Positions 51,709 to 59,645 of a DNA stretch of 64,000 bases are shown here, in pieces. The position numbers were made by a program, and so were the translations under genes. The stretch spans positions 1,585,549 through 1,649,548 of the forward strand of contig AP024675.1 of NCBI GenBank assembly GCA_025998875.1, given 5' to 3'. Source of the stretch: Bacteroidota bacterium. GTDB taxonomy: Bacteria; Bacteroidota; Rhodothermia; JANXDC01. The notes under the pieces were generated by a model that was given only the letters and a program-made list of their open reading frames with translations, searched no databases and was not told where the DNA came from. Numbering within the stretch: position 1 is the first letter of the stretch; the number at the start of each line of letters is the position of its first letter.

Positions 51709-51749
51709 GCTCGCCCCGTCTGGTTCTCGCCGGACGGGGCGAGCTTTTT
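51709..51749 (+). terminator. Intrinsic terminator after hppA
   Basis: A 12-bp perfect stem GCTCGCCCCGTC/GACGGGGCGAGC is followed by five T residues on the plus strand. Its right end touches the argB stop codon; the minus strand lacks a T run, so it does not serve argB. Confidence 0.9.
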
Positions 51750-52549
51750 CAGGGCCGGGGCGATTCTGCGGCCGTTGGACTGGAGCCGATCCAGGTGCCC
51801 CGGTTCAGCGTATCGAGGGTCTCCGGAGAACCGATCCAGACGCGCACCCCTCTTGCGGAGGCGCGCAGAGCGGTTTCGATCTTCGGGCGCATACCATCGC
51901 GAATCCATCCCTCCTGCAGTCCTCTGCGGGCATCTTCCACGGAGAGCGTTTCGAGGGTTCGGCCTGAGGCATCCCAGACGCCCCCTGAGGGGGTGAGCCA
52001 CAGCAGGGCCTCGGCCCGGAGGGCCAAGGCCAGCTCCAGGGCCACCGTATCCGCGTTGACGTTGTAGATGGCGCCCTGCTCGTCTATGCCCAACGGGGCC
52101 ACAATGGGCAGATAAGCCTGCTCAAGCAGGGTGCGCAGCAGCTCCGGTTTTACAGCCCGTATATCGCCCACGTATCCAAAATCCACCCATCTGCCTTCGA
52201 TCCAGCGCGGCGGGCGACGTACTACGCGCACCATACCGCCGTCTGCCCCACAGAGCCCCACGGCCGGCAGCCCATAAGTCAGGGCCTCGGCCACCAGACG
52301 GCGGTTGAGCTCTCCGCACAGGGTCCAGAGCACAATCCGTAGATCCAGCTCCGTGGTCAGGCGTCTTCCCTCCACAAATCGGGGTTCGTGACCCAGCGCC
52401 CGGGCCAATGCGGTGGCCTGCGCGCCCCCGCCGTGCACAAGCAGGAGGGGGGCTCGATCTCGCCAGCGCCGGATGCCCTGCCAGAGCGCCTGCCGGCCTG
52501 ATGGGCTATCGAGAACCTCTCCCCCGACCTTGAGCACTACAGGGCCCAT
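51749..52549 (-). CDS. argB: Acetylglutamate kinase (amino-acid kinase family)
   Basis: A product of 266 residues phosphorylating N-acetylglutamate, or its N-acyl analogue, with ATP. Amino-acid kinase motifs are VLKVGGEVL at the start, LLLVHGGGAQATALA, LCGADGGMV, and NVNADTVALELA, ending in the RDGMRPKIETAL block. The start ATG at 52549 is preferred to the GTG at 52555, because GGAG lies 5 bases before it. It is the last gene of the arg operon and overlaps the argF' end by 13 bases. Confidence 0.9.
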   Translation of the reverse strand: MGPVVLKVGGEVLDSPSGRQALWQGIRRWRDRAPLLLVHGGGAQATALARALGHEPRFVEGRRLTTELDLRIVLWTLCGELNRRLVAEALTYGLPAVGLCGADGGMVRVVRRPPRWIEGRWVDFGYVGDIRAVKPELLRTLLEQAYLPIVAPLGIDEQGAIYNVNADTVALELALALRAEALLWLTPSGGVWDASGRTLETLSVEDARRGLQEGWIRDGMRPKIETALRASARGVRVWIGSPETLDTLNRGTWIGSSPTAAESPRP

Positions 52550-53553
52550 ATCCACTCCAGGATCGCCTTCTGGGCGTGCAGTCGGTACTCGGCCTGCAAC
52601 AGATGACGCGCCCGGGGGCCGTCAAGCACCGCATCGTCGACGACCACATTGCGCCGGACGGGCAAGCAGTGCAGAAAGAAGGCCTCCCGCGTACGGGCCA
52701 TGTGCGCTTCCGTTACCCGCCAGTCTTGAAACCGGGCTCGGCCTTCGGCCTCGGCCTGCGGATCCGTGTAGGCCAGCCTTCCCCCCCAGGCCTTGGCGTA
52801 GACCACCTCGGCGCCGTCGAAGGCTTCCTCGAACCGGTCTGTTTCCCGGATTTCGGTCCCATACTCGGCGGCGTACCGGCGGGCCAGCGCCATCACATCC
52901 GGGTCGAGCGCATAGCCCTCCGGACGGGCCACGGTGACATGCATACCCAGCCGAGCGGCCATAAGCAGGGCGGAGTTCGGCACGGCCATCGGAAGCGCCC
53001 GGGGGTGATAGGCCCAGGTGAGCAGAAACCGCCGGCCCTGCACGCTGCCCCGGAAAAGATCCAGCAGAGTGGCCGCATCGCCCAAGGCCTGACAGGGATG
53101 CCAGAAGGCGGACTCCAGGTTGATGATCGGTACACGCGAGGCGCGCACGATGCGGCCCAGGAATACTTCCCGGCGGTCAAGTTCGTAGTCCCGCATGGAG
53201 GCAAAAGCGCGCACCCCGATGGCATCATAATAGCGCGACAGCACCCCGATGGCCTCCTGAATATGTTCGGCCTCGGCCCCTTCCATCCGGATCCCATCGC
53301 GCCATTCCAGCGACCAGGTGCCCTGCCCGACTGTAAGCACAGAGACATGGGCTCCCAGCTCTACAGCGGCCAGCTCCATGGAGGTGCGGGTGCGCAGGGA
53401 GGGGTTGAAAAACAAAAGCACGATGGAACGGCCGCGCGCCCGATCGGTCCATCGCCGATCCCGGGCAAACCGCCGCGCCGCCTCCAGCCGATCCCACCAG
53501 ATGGCGTCTTCGATCAGGTGCCAGTCGATAAGATGCCGCAGTCCCTCAGGCAT
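52537..53553 (-). CDS. argF': N-acyl-L-ornithine carbamoyltransferase (argF')
   Basis: A product of 338 residues. The carbamoyl-phosphate loop is FFNPSLRTRTSMELAA, with the acylornithine-type block WSLEWRDGIRMEG followed by EHIQEA and ESAFWHPCQALGD, and the C-terminal HCLPVRRNVVVDD. These fit the acetyl/succinyl-ornithine branch found in Bacteroidota and Xanthomonas rather than classical ornithine carbamoyltransferase. The residue just before EHI, reported to help choose acetyl over succinyl, is Ala, so the acyl group is not settled. It starts 8 bases inside the argD end. Confidence 0.87.
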   Translation of the reverse strand: MPEGLRHLIDWHLIEDAIWWDRLEAARRFARDRRWTDRARGRSIVLLFFNPSLRTRTSMELAAVELGAHVSVLTVGQGTWSLEWRDGIRMEGAEAEHIQEAIGVLSRYYDAIGVRAFASMRDYELDRREVFLGRIVRASRVPIINLESAFWHPCQALGDAATLLDLFRGSVQGRRFLLTWAYHPRALPMAVPNSALLMAARLGMHVTVARPEGYALDPDVMALARRYAAEYGTEIRETDRFEEAFDGAEVVYAKAWGGRLAYTDPQAEAEGRARFQDWRVTEAHMARTREAFFLHCLPVRRNVVVDDAVLDGPRARHLLQAEYRLHAQKAILEWIWAL

Positions 53554-54742
53554 AGACCGCTTCCTGTTTGCTGACCCGATCGATCGCTCGATGAAAGGCG
53601 GCCAGGAAAAAGGCGATTTCCTCCTCTGAGGTCGTCAGCGGGGGCATGAGGCGAATCGTAGCGGGGTGTTCGGAGGTGCCCACCAGCACGCCCTCCTGGC
53701 GCAGAGCGGCTACCAGCGGGGCGGCCGGAAAGGGAAGCTCTATGCCGATGAGGCAACCCCGGCCGCGTATGGCGCCTACGCGATCGATGAGGCCCTCTCG
53801 GATGCGGGTGAAGATCTCCGGTGCCCGGGCCATCCAGTTGCCCTCTATGAGCATGCGCAAGGTGGCCGAAACAGCCGCCATGGCCAGCATGCCCCCCCCG
53901 AAGGTGGTGCCCTGATCGCCCGGACGCACCGTAGAGGCGATCGCCTCGGAGACCAGCACGGCGCCCACAGGAACTCCGGATCCCAGGCTTTTGGCCAGCG
54001 CGATCATGTCGGGCCGCATACCGTAGGCCTCTGACACGGAAAACGTGCCCGTCCGGCCCACGCCGGTCTGGACCTCATCGAAAATAAGCACCACCCCATG
54101 GGCATCGCAGAGCTCCCGCAGGCCCCTGTAGTAGCCCGGGGGGGCCTCATAGACGCCGGCCATACTCTGAATGGGCTCCAGAATGCAGGCCCCGATGTCG
54201 CCTCTGCGGCGCAGGAGCTCCCGCAAGGGCCGCAATTCGCCAAAGGGCACAAAATGCGCCTCCGGCAGCACGGCCCGATACGGTTTCCGGTACTTCTGCC
54301 CCCAGGTAACGGACAGGCTTCCCAGGGTCCGGCCATGAAAATCCCCCTGCATGGCCACCACCCCGGGCCGACCTGTATAGGTGCGGGCCAGCTTCAGGGC
54401 GGTCTCTATGGCTTCGGTTCCGGAGTTACAGAAGAAAACCCGTCTCACGCCCTCGGGAGCCAGCGCGGCCAGAAGCCGGGCCGCCTCGGCTCGGACAGGG
54501 CTATAGACCACATTGGAGTAAAAGAGCAGGGTTTCGGCCTGCCGCTGGATGGCCTCCACCACAGGGGGGGGATTGTGGCCCAGCAGGGTGACGCAGTGGC
54601 CTCCGTAGAAGTCCAGATAGCGCCGTCCCTCCACATCCCAGACGTAGGATCCCTGCCCACGCAGGAGGGCGATAGGCCATTTGGCGTACGTGGGTAACTC
54701 GTAGGCCTCCTCCCAGGACCGGATGCGTTCGAAGGTGCTCAT
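53546..54742 (-). CDS. argD: Acetylornithine aminotransferase
   Basis: A product of 398 residues, a class III PLP transaminase. FCNSGTEAIETALKLAR binds the cofactor phosphate, IFDEVQTGVGRTG holds the Asp that pairs with the pyridine nitrogen, and the Lys is in ALAKSLGSGVP. It makes N-acylornithine from the semialdehyde. The ATG at 54742 overlaps the argC stop as ATGA; the frame offers an earlier start but without homology. Confidence 0.92.
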   Translation of the reverse strand: MSTFERIRSWEEAYELPTYAKWPIALLRGQGSYVWDVEGRRYLDFYGGHCVTLLGHNPPPVVEAIQRQAETLLFYSNVVYSPVRAEAARLLAALAPEGVRRVFFCNSGTEAIETALKLARTYTGRPGVVAMQGDFHGRTLGSLSVTWGQKYRKPYRAVLPEAHFVPFGELRPLRELLRRRGDIGACILEPIQSMAGVYEAPPGYYRGLRELCDAHGVVLIFDEVQTGVGRTGTFSVSEAYGMRPDMIALAKSLGSGVPVGAVLVSEAIASTVRPGDQGTTFGGGMLAMAAVSATLRMLIEGNWMARAPEIFTRIREGLIDRVGAIRGRGCLIGIELPFPAAPLVAALRQEGVLVGTSEHPATIRLMPPLTTSEEEIAFFLAAFHRAIDRVSKQEAVYA

Positions 54743-55767
54743 CGGATATCCTCCAGGGCGATGGCGTTCAGGGGCAATAGGCCCAACGCGTCGGGCCATC
54801 CAAACAGGCGGTTCATGTTCTGCACGGCCTGGCTGGCCGCGCCTTTCAGCAGGTTATCCAGAGCGAAGCCCACCACCAGTTGATCGGCGCGCACAATCCA
54901 GCCGATATCGGCATACGGGGTGCCCACGCTCCAGCGCAACTCCGGAATCCTTCCGGGCCATAAGCGCACCAGCCCCTCTTCCGGGTAGGCGGACCGGAAA
55001 AAAGCCTCCAGTTCCGGCTCTGAGACAGTACGGTTTAGCTCTACGTGGGCCACCCCCCAGATGCCCCGCGTCCAGGGGCCGGAGGCGGGTACGAAGGCGA
55101 CTTGCCAGGAGGGTCCCAGACGGGCCTCGATCTCGGGCAGATGCTGGTGGGCAAGCACCTTGTAGGCGCGTACGTTGCCGTCGCGCGTCGGAAAGTGCGT
55201 CGTCTCCGAGGGTCTGGATCCGGAGCCGGAGGCGCCCGTGAGGGCGGTTATCCAGGCTCGGCCCGACAGGCCCGCACGGGTAAAGGGCCAGAGCGCCAAC
55301 AGCATGCCCGTGGCAAAACAACCCGGATTGGCGATCCAGCGCGTTTCTGCCGGATACGGTCCCAGCTCCGGAAGGCCGTACTGGAAGCGCCCCAGGAGCT
55401 CGGGAGCGGGGTGGGAGAAGCCGAACCAGATCGGGTACAGTTCCGGGTCGGAGAGCCGGAAATCGGCGCTCAGGTCGATGAGGTAGCCTCTGTAGCCCCC
55501 CTCCAGGAGTCGGCGGACCGCCTGTGCGCCTTCGCCGTGCTCGGCGGCAAGAAAGATGAGCTCCGGTTCGACCTCCAGCAGAGCTTCCTCCTGGCAGAAC
55601 CGAAGTTCACTCAAGCCGCGCAGTTCCGGATGTGCAGACCAGATCGGTTTTCCGGCCGCATGACGGCTGCTGACGGCCTGCAGGCATACGCCGGGATGGT
55701 GCAACAGGAGCCGGATGAGCTCTCGGCCCACGTATCCAGCCCCGTGAAGCAGGGCCACGCGTTTCAT
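54739..55767 (-). CDS. argC: N-acetyl-gamma-glutamyl-phosphate reductase
   Basis: A product of 342 residues. The N-terminal NAD-binding start is LLHGAGYVGRELIRLLL, and the catalytic Cys is in ANPGCFATGMLLAL, followed by TALTGASGSGSRP. NADPH-dependent reduction gives the semialdehyde. The ATG at 55767 overlaps the preceding unknown gene's stop as ATGA; a longer frame upstream is not conserved. Confidence 0.93.
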   Translation of the reverse strand: MKRVALLHGAGYVGRELIRLLLHHPGVCLQAVSSRHAAGKPIWSAHPELRGLSELRFCQEEALLEVEPELIFLAAEHGEGAQAVRRLLEGGYRGYLIDLSADFRLSDPELYPIWFGFSHPAPELLGRFQYGLPELGPYPAETRWIANPGCFATGMLLALWPFTRAGLSGRAWITALTGASGSGSRPSETTHFPTRDGNVRAYKVLAHQHLPEIEARLGPSWQVAFVPASGPWTRGIWGVAHVELNRTVSEPELEAFFRSAYPEEGLVRLWPGRIPELRWSVGTPYADIGWIVRADQLVVGFALDNLLKGAASQAVQNMNRLFGWPDALGLLPLNAIALEDIR

Positions 55768-56840
55768 CCGACCGCCTCCATCGAAACATGCCCGTTGCTG
55801 GGCCATCCGCTCATGCTCAGCGCGCGCATCACGCAGTTCACAAGCGCATCGGGCTCTTGCTGGGCGTTATAGGCCGGAATGCCCAGGGCGTTCTGAATGT
55901 AGCGTTTGCCCACGGCGTTGTCCGTTACGGGACCGACTATGGCCGTAATAGGGCTCCGGTATCGGGTGCGGAACAGGTAATCGGCCGCCCAGGCCCCGGC
56001 CAGATCCGTTGCCGCCACCACGTGCGCGGCGGTCAGGGCGCGCAATTCCTTGTCCATGAGTAGCTCGTCCACCCCGTAATAGCCGATGAATCCGTCGCCC
56101 AGCTCCAGGACGAGCACGTCCGGCCGGGAGGCGTTGAGTTCCTGAATGATCCCTTTAGCGATAGGCACCATGTCCTTGTTCACCGAGGAGACCACACCGG
56201 CGTCGATGAAGGTCAGACAGGAGATGGCTCCGGCCTCCTGCATGGCGCGCACGTCGCGCAGCAGGGCGGCTCCGGTGAGCTTGGCTGCCGCTACACGAAG
56301 GCCCCGTGCGCTGAGGCCGCGCACGATCTGCGCGGCTGCATAGGTTTTGCCCGTGTTCATGGCCGTGCCGCTGAGCATCACCAGCGGCGCCGAATGGGTC
56401 AGCGTGTAGACCGGCTCCAGGGCGTGGTCCTGAATACGGGCATGTCGCTTGAGCCCGTGTACCTCGTAGAGCACCGCGCCCAGCACTTCAACGGGGAGGG
56501 CCGGACCCAGATCGGGGTGGTCGGAGGTGCACTGGCCGAGGATACCGCCCATATTGAGCACATGCAGCACGTCTCCGACCTGGATGCGACGGGGGATTCG
56601 GCCGCTGTAGCCCTTGAGGGCCTGCCGTTCGCCCAGCGCTCCGATGAGCAGATGGCCTTTCCGGAGGGTGTGAAAACGGCCGTCGGTGGTTTCCAGCTGG
56701 TTGTATCGATCCTTATCGGCCAACACGCGTACGACGATGCAGTAGCCCTCCTCGGCGACGATATACGGGCTGATCTCCACTTCATGGGTCAGGTTGCAGG
56801 GGCTGGTGCTGGAGGCGATCCAGTCTACCGAGATGCGCAT
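55764..56840 (-). CDS. P-loop protein in the arg operon (DUF1611/BioD-like), candidate acylglutamate-forming enzyme
   Basis: A product of 358 residues. The N-terminal half (about 1-130) is of unknown fold. The C-terminal half begins with a P-loop, MLSGTAMNTGKTYAAA, then AAAKLTGAALLRDV and the acidic motif DVLVLELGDGFIGYYG, the arrangement of dethiobiotin-synthetase-like and DUF1611 proteins. Some DUF1611 members (DgcN) are N-acetyltransferases of D-glutamate, which is established for marine bacteria. It lies between argG and argC in all-overlapping order, with no ArgA, ArgJ or GNAT gene in the operon, so it may supply N-acylglutamate; this is inference. A cobalamin or regulatory role cannot be excluded. 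Confidence 0.6.
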   Translation of the reverse strand: MRISVDWIASSTSPCNLTHEVEISPYIVAEEGYCIVVRVLADKDRYNQLETTDGRFHTLRKGHLLIGALGERQALKGYSGRIPRRIQVGDVLHVLNMGGILGQCTSDHPDLGPALPVEVLGAVLYEVHGLKRHARIQDHALEPVYTLTHSAPLVMLSGTAMNTGKTYAAAQIVRGLSARGLRVAAAKLTGAALLRDVRAMQEAGAISCLTFIDAGVVSSVNKDMVPIAKGIIQELNASRPDVLVLELGDGFIGYYGVDELLMDKELRALTAAHVVAATDLAGAWAADYLFRTRYRSPITAIVGPVTDNAVGKRYIQNALGIPAYNAQQEPDALVNCVMRALSMSGWPSNGHVSMEAVG

Positions 56841-56843
56841 GGG

Positions 56844-58058
56844 CTAGCCCTCCGCGCTTGTGGGTTGACGGGTGCGGGCCCGGTGAGCCAAGAGCGAGGA
56901 TACGCCCCAGATGCGAGCAAACCCCTCTGCATCCCGACCATTCCAGAGCGTGTTCGTCTCGCCATAGGTGGCCAGATCCGGGGCCAGAAGCCCGTAGGAG
57001 CTTTCACAGCCCAGTACCTCGATACGACCCCGGTGCAGCCGCAGGCGCACAGATCCCGTCACGGTCTGCTGGGAAGAGTCCAGAAAAGCCTCTATATCCC
57101 GCATGACGGGATCGAAATACAGGCCTTCGTGCAGGAGCATGCCGTAAAAGTCGGCCAGGTGATCTTTCTGGAAACGCTGCCATTTGGTGAGCACGAGCTT
57201 CTCCAGTTCCCGATGGGCCGTGATGAGGATGAGCGCGGCCGGGGCCTCAAAGCCGATTCGGCCTTTGATCCCCAGGATTGTATCGCCCAGATGCATGCCG
57301 CGCCCGACCCCATGTTCAGCGCCGATGCGGTTGAGCTCCTCGATCAGGGCGACCGGATCCATGGGGGCATCGTTGAGCGCTACGGGAACGCCCTGCTCGA
57401 AGGCAATGCGTAGCTCGGCGGGCGTTTCGGGCGCCCGCTCGGGATCCCGCGTCTGAAGCCATGCCTCTGGTGGCAGGGGCAGGTGGGAGGTGAGCGTCTC
57501 GCCTCCACCAATGGTCGTGCCCCACAGCCCCCGATTGATGGAGTAGGTGGCCTTCTGCTCCGATACGGGCAGGCCGCGCTCCCGCAGGTAAGCCGCTGTC
57601 TGCGTGCGGCTCCAGCCCAGATCCCGGATAGGGGTCAGGATTTGCAGGTCCCCGGCGAGCACGCGCAAGGCCACATCGAAGCGAATCTGGTCATTTCCAG
57701 CCCCCGTGGAACCGTGCGCGATGGCCCGGGCGCCGATCTGGCGCGCTATCTCGACGACCTTGCGCGCCTGCACAACGCGTTCCGGACCCACGCACAGGGG
57801 GTAGACGCCCCCACGCAGGATGTTGCCCTTGATCAGGTAGCTCAGGTGATCCTCAAAGAGTTCTCGCCTGCCGTCTACGGTCCAGTGTCCCGAGGCGCCC
57901 AGCCGGGCCGACCAGTCAGCCAGCCGTCGGGCCTCGGCCTCGTCAATGCCCCCGGTGTTGACCGTGACCGTGTAGACAGGCTCCCGATAGGTTTCCTGGA
58001 GATACGGGACGCAGAAGGAGGTGTCCAGTCCCCCGCTGAAGGCCAGTACGATTGCCAT
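56844..58058 (-). CDS. argG: Argininosuccinate synthase
   Basis: A product of 404 residues joining citrulline and aspartate with ATP. The ATP pyrophosphatase P-loop is VLAFSGGLDTSFCVPYLQ, followed by the conserved HGSTGAGNDQIRF block and KATYSINRGLWG with its aspartate and citrulline contacts. It is the first gene of the arg operon and lies behind a leader with a promoter, a putative leader peptide and a terminator (58086-58287). AGGAG sits 12 bases before the ATG. In the N-acyl pathway a deacylase is needed to feed this step; none is obvious here. Confidence 0.96.
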   Translation of the reverse strand: MAIVLAFSGGLDTSFCVPYLQETYREPVYTVTVNTGGIDEAEARRLADWSARLGASGHWTVDGRRELFEDHLSYLIKGNILRGGVYPLCVGPERVVQARKVVEIARQIGARAIAHGSTGAGNDQIRFDVALRVLAGDLQILTPIRDLGWSRTQTAAYLRERGLPVSEQKATYSINRGLWGTTIGGGETLTSHLPLPPEAWLQTRDPERAPETPAELRIAFEQGVPVALNDAPMDPVALIEELNRIGAEHGVGRGMHLGDTILGIKGRIGFEAPAALILITAHRELEKLVLTKWQRFQKDHLADFYGMLLHEGLYFDPVMRDIEAFLDSSQQTVTGSVRLRLHRGRIEVLGCESSYGLLAPDLATYGETNTLWNGRDAEGFARIWGVSSLLAHRARTRQPTSAEG

Positions 58059-58085
58059 TTTTGATTCCGGCTCCTATCGCTAGAG

Positions 58086-58118
58086 GAAACAAAAACGCCG
58101 GTTCGGGTGAACCGGCGT
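58086..58118 (-). terminator. Leader terminator (attenuator) before argG
   Basis: On the minus strand, ACGCCGGTTC (58118-58109), loop ACCC, GAACCGGCGT (58104-58095), then TTTTGTTT. A perfect 10-bp GC-rich stem and T run lie 28 bases before the argG start, inside the predicted transcript, so it would stop most transcripts unless prevented. Confidence 0.85.
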
Positions 58119-58185
58119 CTTTTCTTTCTTCGGGGTGGCTTCTACGTTCAAGACGGCGCCCATCCCATACGACGCCCGTTCACCC
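58105..58185 (-). promoter_or_regulatory. Antiterminator pairing in the arg leader
   Basis: GGGTGAACGGGCGTC (58185-58171, minus strand) can pair with GACGCCGGTTCACCC (58119-58105) at 14 of 15 positions. The second segment contains the terminator's 5' arm and loop, so the two folds exclude each other. A third stem (58234-58223 with 58174-58163, 12 pairs with one G-U) competes with the antiterminator arm. Confidence 0.65.
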
Positions 58186-58228
58186 ATCGGGGAACCTTTC
58201 CTCGTCGGGATCGTCGGAGGGCCGTCAT
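58148..58228 (-). CDS. Arginine-rich leader peptide of the arg operon
   Basis: ATG at 58228 to TGA at 58148 codes for 26 residues with seven Arg, among them CGA CGA TCC CGA CGA near the start and CGT CGT near the end. An earlier in-frame ATG at 58249 would extend it by seven residues but would be almost leaderless. A ribosome site is weak (GCAGGT about 11 bases upstream). The reading frame lies between the promoter and the terminator. High GC makes Arg codons common, so conservation in relatives is the needed proof. Confidence 0.55.
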   Translation of the reverse strand: MTALRRSRRGKVPRWVNGRRMGWAPS

Positions 58229-58256
58229 ATGGGACGAGACCTGCACCATGCGGGCG

Positions 58257-58287
58257 CAAGTGTACGGAATCCCACGGGGAATGTCAA
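58257..58287 (-). promoter_or_regulatory. Promoter of the arg operon
   Basis: On the minus strand, TTGACA (58287-58282), 17 bases, TACACT (58264-58259), extended to TACACTTG, one mismatch to TAnnTTTG with 20 bases after TTG. Transcription would start near 58252, giving a leader of about 190 bases to argG. Confidence 0.75.
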
Positions 58288-58376
58288 GAGGTAAGCCAAT
58301 TTTTTTGCAGGAGATCTTGCTCGGGGTGCGGAGAAAAGCGGATTTTTTGTCGCCTTACAGTGGGGAGGATAGAGCC

Positions 58377-59645
58377 ATGCACCTCAAAATGGGATGCGGG
58401 GTGTTCCTGCTGGGTTGGGCCATTACCGCATGGGCCCAGGCGGATCGATTGGCCAATTCCCGTTTCGATCCCCGGATGCTGCAGGAGCCCGCTATCCGGG
58501 CCGCGCTGGAGTGGGTCGATGCGCACCGACGGGAGCACGTCGAGGAATGGATCCGACTGACGGAAATCCCTGCCCCCTCGGGCCGGGAGGCGCGCCGCGC
58601 CGCCTACATAAAGGCCGAAATGGAGCGCATGGGGCTGGATTCCGTCCACATCGATGCCGCGGGCAATGTGGTGGGTATTCTGCGGGGGCGTTCCCGGCAT
58701 CCGGCCATCGCCATAGCGGCACATATGGATACCGTGCATCCTCTTGAAGAGATCCGGGTGCGCCAGGAGGGGGATACGCTGTATGCGCCCGGTGTGCTTG
58801 ATGATACAGGGGGGCTGGTGGTCATGCTGCAGGCGGCTCGGGCCCTGCGGGCGGCCCGTGTGCCCCTGGCCGGGGACGTCATCTTTATCGCCACCGTACA
58901 GGAAGAGGTAGGCCTCAAGGGTATGGCACACTGGCTGGAACACAATCCCCGTCGGGCCGACATGGTCATCGCCGTAGATGGCAACCTGGGGGATGTGCCT
59001 TACGGGGCGCTCGGCATCCGGTGGTTTCGCTTTCACTATCGCGCCTATGGGGCGCATACTATGCAGAGCCTGGGGCGTCCGAACCCCAACCGGGCCGTGG
59101 CGCGGGCCATCGAGGATATCTACCGACTCCCCCTGCCCCATCCATCGGGCACGTTTGTGATCTACAACATCGGGGTGATCGGGGGCGGGACGGTGCCCAA
59201 CGCGGTCTCCCAGCACTCCTTTTTCACCGTGGATCTGCGTTCGCCCAGCGCCCGACTGCTTGCCGAATATGCCGACTCCATTCTGGCGCGCGCCCGCCGG
59301 GCGGCTGAGCGGGAGCGTGTACGTTTCGAGGTGGAAATCCTCAACGATACCCCGGCCGGAGGCACGGAAGAGGAGCTGGCCGATCGAAGAGAGCATCCGC
59401 TTGTGCAGACGGCCGTGCACATCCTCAACCACCTGGGCGTGGGGCAACAGCTGGGCCGGCCCGTTCGACCCCTGGCCAGCGGATCGACGGATGCGAACAT
59501 GGCCGTTGCGCGCGGCATTCCGGCCATCGCCTTCGGGAGGGGCTTTGGACGGGATCAACATACCCTCCAGGAGGCCGCACATATTCCAAGCGCCTTCCTG
59601 GCCACCAGAGGCCTTATCCTGCTTATCGCCTCCCTGCTGCGCTAG
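58377..59645 (+). CDS. Exported M20 family metallopeptidase
   Basis: A product of 422 residues. A signal peptide (MHLKMGCGVFLLGWAITAWAQ region, about 22 residues) comes first. The M20 metal-site motifs follow: IAAHMDTVHP, APGVLDDTGGLVVML, TVQEEVGLKG, and the C-terminal GSTDANMAVARGIPA with the last His in DQHTLQEAAH. A dimerisation domain lies between. It cuts di- or tripeptides or related amides outside the cytoplasm. The start is at ATG 58377 with GGGGAGG upstream; a frame start at 58107 crosses the arg leader and lacks a signal. It is divergent from the arg operon, but its export argues against an ArgE role. Confidence 0.9.
   Translation: MHLKMGCGVFLLGWAITAWAQADRLANSRFDPRMLQEPAIRAALEWVDAHRREHVEEWIRLTEIPAPSGREARRAAYIKAEMERMGLDSVHIDAAGNVVGILRGRSRHPAIAIAAHMDTVHPLEEIRVRQEGDTLYAPGVLDDTGGLVVMLQAARALRAARVPLAGDVIFIATVQEEVGLKGMAHWLEHNPRRADMVIAVDGNLGDVPYGALGIRWFRFHYRAYGAHTMQSLGRPNPNRAVARAIEDIYRLPLPHPSGTFVIYNIGVIGGGTVPNAVSQHSFFTVDLRSPSARLLAEYADSILARARRAAERERVRFEVEILNDTPAGGTEEELADRREHPLVQTAVHILNHLGVGQQLGRPVRPLASGSTDANMAVARGIPAIAFGRGFGRDQHTLQEAAHIPSAFLATRGLILLIASLLR

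Follow-up and report, generated by a model that had tools for sequence, protein, structure and literature searches.

A putative ribosome-mediated arginine attenuator in front of the argG operon in Rhodothermia

The arg operon in the window, by which we mean the whole 64-kb stretch of DNA analyzed, is very likely governed by a ribosome-mediated transcription attenuator that would sense charged arginine tRNA. Its target would be the genes argG-X-argC-argD-argF'-argB, and we infer the response to arginine from sequence and modeling. Upstream of argG we find a leader ORF containing runs of the cognate codon, an intrinsic terminator before the first gene, and an antiterminator that carries compensatory changes in relatives and excludes the terminator. 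An earlier note on this DNA had proposed such an attenuator and suggested that the conservation of its frame and stems be checked in related genomes. Indeed, the Arg run, the terminator, and the antiterminator are conserved across the class, with compensatory changes, and the absence of the arginine repressor ArgR and the presence of a Trp attenuator in the same genome lend the proposal further support.

Promoter, leader ORF, and operon

The first gene of the operon, argG (56844..58058, minus strand), encodes argininosuccinate synthase, with matches to TIGR00032 and NF001770 above the cut-off. It is followed on the same strand by a gene of no confident family (55764-56840, weak DUF1611 P-loop match), argC (54739-55806), argD (53546-54799), a gene for N-acetylornithine carbamoyltransferase (52537-53553), and argB (51749-52555). 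The genes after argG span 51749..56840, and their ends overlap or almost touch. The second gene of the operon seems to adjoin argG in several relatives. The candidate attenuator is located on the minus strand between argG and a divergent M20-type peptidase gene (58386-59645, plus strand).

The promoter was present as previously described, and the coordinates given in the earlier note are right to within a base. The promoter consists of a -35 element TTGACA (58282..58287, minus strand) and, after a 17-nt spacer, a -10 element TACACT (58259..58264, minus strand). With 10 of 12 matches it is the sole such site in 1.4 kb (0.4 in shuffled sequence), and a TTGA(C/T) box occupies the matching position in most relatives. 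Transcription is predicted to start near 58252.

The earlier note had placed behind this promoter a 26-codon frame in which seven codons specify Arg and CGA occurs twice as a pair. The seven codons and the two pairs were found as described, but the start was not: the leader ORF most likely begins at ATG 58249, nine nucleotides past the -10 box and 21 nt upstream of the ATG at 58228 chosen before, which is internal and in the same frame. We assign the start to ATG 58249 because a congeneric genome retains the upstream ATG (11 nt past its -10 box) and the 33-codon length, with the same RRSRRG run, and has ATC at the position of ATG 58228. The ORF (58148..58249, minus strand) thus comprises 33 codons and a TGA stop codon (58150-58148), with MVQVSSHMTALRRSRRGKVPRWVNGRRMGWAPS as its predicted peptide. 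The gap between the -10 box and the ATG is 9 nt in the window and has a median of 10 nt across 74 leaders, transcript 5' ends being predicted throughout. The leader in the window would thus be nearly leaderless itself.

Seven in-frame Arg codons lie in the ORF: CGA at 58216, 58213, 58207, 58204, and 58189, and CGT at 58174 and 58171. The two CGA pairs form the putative stall site CGA CGA TCC CGA CGA (58202..58216, minus strand), which encodes Arg-Arg-Ser-Arg-Arg, and an Arg run is found in 18 of 20 families. The additional Arg codons (58169..58189, minus strand) are the CGA at 58189-58187 and the CGT pair at 58174-58169. CGA accounts for 40% of the Arg codons in leaders versus 10.5% in ten genes of the window. 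This codon is decoded through inosine wobble in most bacteria, and decoding is slow.

Alternative RNA structures and modeled ribosome stalling

The intrinsic terminator (58087..58122, minus strand) pairs 58122-58109 with 58104-58091 and continues into the tail TTTTTGTTT. The perfect 10-bp stem with a T run 28 bases before argG that had been reported is therefore there; it is GC-rich, and A-U pairs lengthen it to 14. Strand 2, the 5' arm of the antiterminator (58171..58185, minus strand), shows covariation in relatives and pairs with strand 3, the 3' arm (58105..58119, minus strand), which overlaps the 5' arm and loop of the terminator. The claim that this 15-base segment pairs at 14 positions held, with a duplex energy of -28.8 kcal/mol that none of 200 shuffles equaled. 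The competing 12-bp stem of the earlier note proved to be part of a longer protector, or anti-antiterminator, stem of 16 bp (58238-58223 with 58174-58159). Folding assigns its 5' arm, strand 1, to 58223..58238 and its 3' arm to 58159..58174 (both minus strand), the latter overlapping the antiterminator arm. As arms are shared, the antiterminator and terminator pairings are mutually exclusive, and so are those of the protector and the antiterminator.

We compared these pairings across families of leaders. The antiterminator is stronger than in shuffled sequences in many families (Fisher over 17 family medians, 1.7e-8, the family-level statistics being drawn from related sequences). Against a null of mismatched families the contrast in strength is weaker, with a median p of 0.15, in part owing to conservation of the terminator arm from family to family. 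Strand 2 fits the strand 3 of its own family better than that of others, with a fraction of 0.819 of positions paired versus 0.737 +/- 0.015 (maximum 0.775) for the strands of other families. In an alignment of 22 sequences the antiterminator helix is 87.7% paired, and sliding the partner by one base reduces this to 55.5% or less. In this alignment none of 500 shuffles reaches the covariation score of the helix, three pairs of which show double changes. The number of extra Watson-Crick pair types per column does not exceed the mismatched-family null, and the case for covariation thus rests on the paired fraction and on the score of the 22-sequence alignment. RNAalifold recovers the terminator, in which 7 of 13 pairs show double changes. 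In families f7 and f9, several members have a weak antiterminator.

The small ORF could in principle encode a functional Arg-rich microprotein, the hairpin behind it being an ordinary terminator, and its conservation as a reading frame would suit this explanation. The peptides differ between families beyond the Arg run, however, the covariation between antiterminator and terminator would be left unexplained, and the neighboring gene is divergent, so that no co-oriented upstream gene requires a terminator. We hence regard a microprotein as extremely improbable.

We assessed the proposed switch with a partition-function model of 65 leaders, in which upstream pairing of the terminator 5' arm was computed for RNA ending before the terminator 3' arm, with a ribosome footprint placed at each codon. 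The family means of upstream pairing of strand 3 are 0.67 with the ribosome at the Arg cluster, 0.57 with no ribosome, and 0.50 with the ribosome past the cluster (Wilcoxon over 16 families, p = 4.6e-5 for both contrasts with the stall). The stall-dependent switch is modest in size when averaged over families and weak in some of them; in four Rhodothermus-like leaders (family f3) the change is large, and the value climbs from 0.19-0.60 to 0.99-1.00 once the ribosome reaches the first Arg codons. For the window, the model forms the 16-bp protector in ribosome-free RNA, and stalls at codons 12-16 free the 14-pair antiterminator, in line with the suggestion that a ribosome waiting at the CGA codons would release it; the modeled footprints sit one base off, which is immaterial at this resolution. 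If the ribosome is instead left on the stop codon, the truncated RNA of the window still prefers the antiterminator in the model, and termination would thus depend on ribosome release or on the protector stem acting by kinetic capture.

In the mechanism that we propose, RNA polymerase would start near 58252, and a ribosome would initiate at ATG 58249, almost at the 5' end of the transcript. With abundant Arg-tRNA, the ribosome would clear the Arg run and depart, allowing the 16-bp protector to capture the antiterminator arm; the terminator could then form, and transcription would end before argG. With Arg-tRNA in short supply, the ribosome would stall at CGA CGA UCC CGA CGA and cover strand 1, upon which strand 2 would pair with strand 3, and the polymerase would read into the operon. 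That arginine starvation stalls the ribosome in the cell is deduced from the codons and the pathway. Since a stall at the Arg codons yields the antiterminator in the model, the direction fits arginine starvation and readthrough into the arg operon.

The sign of this switch also bears on whether the ribosome might be stalled by an arrest peptide, that is, by the nascent Arg-rich chain itself or through the action of free arginine or a polyamine on that chain, as in SpeFL or the arginine attenuator peptide of fungi. Arg runs are translated slowly, and Arg-dependent leaders with other outputs exist in S. aureus (rbfL) and Salmonella (orf34). Conservation is limited to the Arg run and defines no peptide, however, and as a stall on the run leads to readthrough, an arrest induced by arginine would switch a biosynthetic operon in the wrong direction. 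An arrest peptide thus appears improbable to us.

Conservation, related leaders, and the missing repressor

About three further positions in the 64-kb window also combine an Arg-rich small ORF with a terminator, and a single genome is therefore suggestive only; it is conservation that decides. We took the region upstream of argG in 105 genomes of the class (Rhodothermia as defined by GTDB) and looked for ORFs of 15-55 codons in which some stretch of 10 residues holds four or more Arg, followed within 70 nt of the stop codon by a strong hairpin and a T run. This strict scan returned 62 of the 105 regions, and none of 525 dinucleotide shuffles or 105 antisense strands. A relaxed scan returned 67 of 105 regions, versus 7 of 525 shuffled sequences and 2 of 105 antisense strands. 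A leader beginning MHASCTHSRRFVAFPSRLRRG in family f21, whose promoter lies about 40 nt upstream, and several members with a bulged hairpin (for example L010) were added by eye. Altogether, an Arg leader precedes argG in 18 of the 20 families examined in the class. It is absent from all 8 regions of family f4 and all 15 of family f10; both families also lack ArgR. Some f10 regions upstream of argG contain a GGCGCTGATT hairpin like the leader terminator, and several (L018-L021, L127, L150) share a recurring GATCCAA...ATGCGTT with no Arg leader; the f10 upstream sequence might be a remnant or a substitute form of control. Outside the class, no leader with a terminator was seen in a sample of about 76 argG loci from Bacteroidia, Planctomycetota, Gemmatimonadota, and others, which is not proof of absence.

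Upstream of argH, the strict scan detected an Arg leader in none of 29 regions. Upstream of carA, 4 of 30 regions passed the leader scan, all from Rhodothermus-like genomes (g3). We do not claim an Arg leader for carA, as the stop codon meets the terminator in three of the four and the Arg codons are scattered. Several carA leaders of the class (among L216-L245) have a terminator-like hairpin and T run, in many with CCTTCCC...GGGAAGG, and in one genome (G001) a short ORF beginning MGASSSIAIRRRRAW precedes a terminator-like hairpin at carA.

In well-studied bacteria, arginine control is exerted by ArgR. Neither of its domains, PF01316 and PF02863, was found in the genome to which the window belongs, and we thus rejected ArgR as the controller. 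The arginine-binding domain PF02863 occurs in 1 of 240 genomes of the class and the DNA-binding domain PF01316 in 1 of 60 relatives, where five equal-scoring copies in 127-aa frames (G009:C1) probably represent a repeated mobile element and not ArgR. One genome of the class, G172, contains a two-domain ArgR gene (L174:1011-1481) ending just before argG, and that argG has no leader; the argR gene and this argG without a leader ORF were perhaps acquired together. In the class, the attenuator appears to stand in for the absent ArgR.

The trpE region of the same genome (about 1392.3 kb, minus strand) provides a parallel, with a near-leaderless Trp-Trp-Trp frame, MDMMCLHTAHGWWWRWSDARTGGRDGRA, followed by a GC hairpin and a T run. 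Leaders with a Trp run and a terminator are found in 18 of 26 trpE regions of the class (L306-L335 among the loci), which raises the prior for an arginine attenuator. A similar scan revealed no conserved leader at ilvB or hisG, with one hisG candidate. That codon runs match the pathway, Arg before argG and Trp before trpE in the same genomes, speaks against a general translation sensor, in which the leader would report ribosome supply or overall initiation rather than arginine. A near-leaderless start and inefficient CGA codons could confer such sensitivity, but we consider a general sensor very improbable and retain the arginine attenuator as our reading.

The arg and trp leaders are both enriched in a YCATA element located 19-22 nt after the leader ATG (58232-58228 in the window, at codon 7). 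CAY is found at codon 7 in 30% of arg and 43% of trp leaders (family-weighted), and mostly in under 10% at other codons. YCATA is possibly an early polymerase pause or an element of leaderless translation. A speculative extension, which we think has a limited chance of being right, is that Rhodothermia share one leaderless attenuator platform for their amino-acid operons, which has replaced classical repressors. Shared arg/trp promoter geometry and the fixed YCATA would be its hallmarks, the latter perhaps acting as a promoter-proximal polymerase pause for ribosome loading before the Arg or Trp codons emerge.

Comparison with known systems

An Rfam scan of 57700-58900 at E<=5 showed no T-box, riboswitch, or other family reaching threshold, and a T-box or known Rfam leader at this locus was rejected, as nothing rose above chance. 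T-boxes bind the tRNA directly and have no leader ORF. Arginine T-boxes likewise place charged-Arg-tRNA control at the RNA level, and a comparative survey of 2005 (PMC1262725) describes arginine under RNA-level control only by T-boxes, in other species, and saw no conserved RNA structure upstream of the arginine operons of Actinobacteria.

Two bacterial leader ORFs already known to sense arginine through Arg codons act by other routes. Salmonella speF orf34 has two consecutive Arg codons and senses arginine by ribosome pausing (PMC6386406). Its output differs in that Rho, RNase G, and exposure of the ribosome binding site act on ornithine decarboxylase, and there is no attenuation of an arg operon at an intrinsic terminator (PMC6386406). 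S. aureus rbfL also uses Arg codons in a leader ORF, but blocks translation initiation of a biofilm regulator (PMC13009471). Our search of openly searchable full texts turned up no case in which an operon for arginine biosynthesis is controlled by ribosome-mediated transcription attenuation.

The closest likeness is to the classical attenuators of trp, his, leu, ilv, thr, and phe operons in Proteobacteria and Actinobacteria, which share the promoter, the cognate-codon ORF, the protector/antiterminator/terminator arrangement, and the cognate operon; the arg leader differs in that it would sense arginine and is found in Rhodothermia. The leader ORFs of S. meliloti trpL (PMC7298713) and of S. lividans leuL, trpL, and ilvL (PMC8079986) lie at or next to the transcript 5' end, as is predicted for the arg leader here, although those systems concern another amino acid and phylum. 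As far as we could find, the putative arg leader is a new specificity (arginine, in Rhodothermia, where the repressor is missing) of a known attenuation mechanism. Until now, arginine has apparently not figured among the amino acids whose biosynthesis responds to them through ribosome-mediated transcription attenuation, a mechanism that the arg leader would also extend to Rhodothermia. The class, which lost or never had ArgR and whose lone genome with argR before argG has no leader there, would be a natural case of exchange between repressor and attenuator. The arg leader also offers a testable design for leaderless leaders, in which ribosome loading would be synchronized with transcription without a Shine-Dalgarno sequence.
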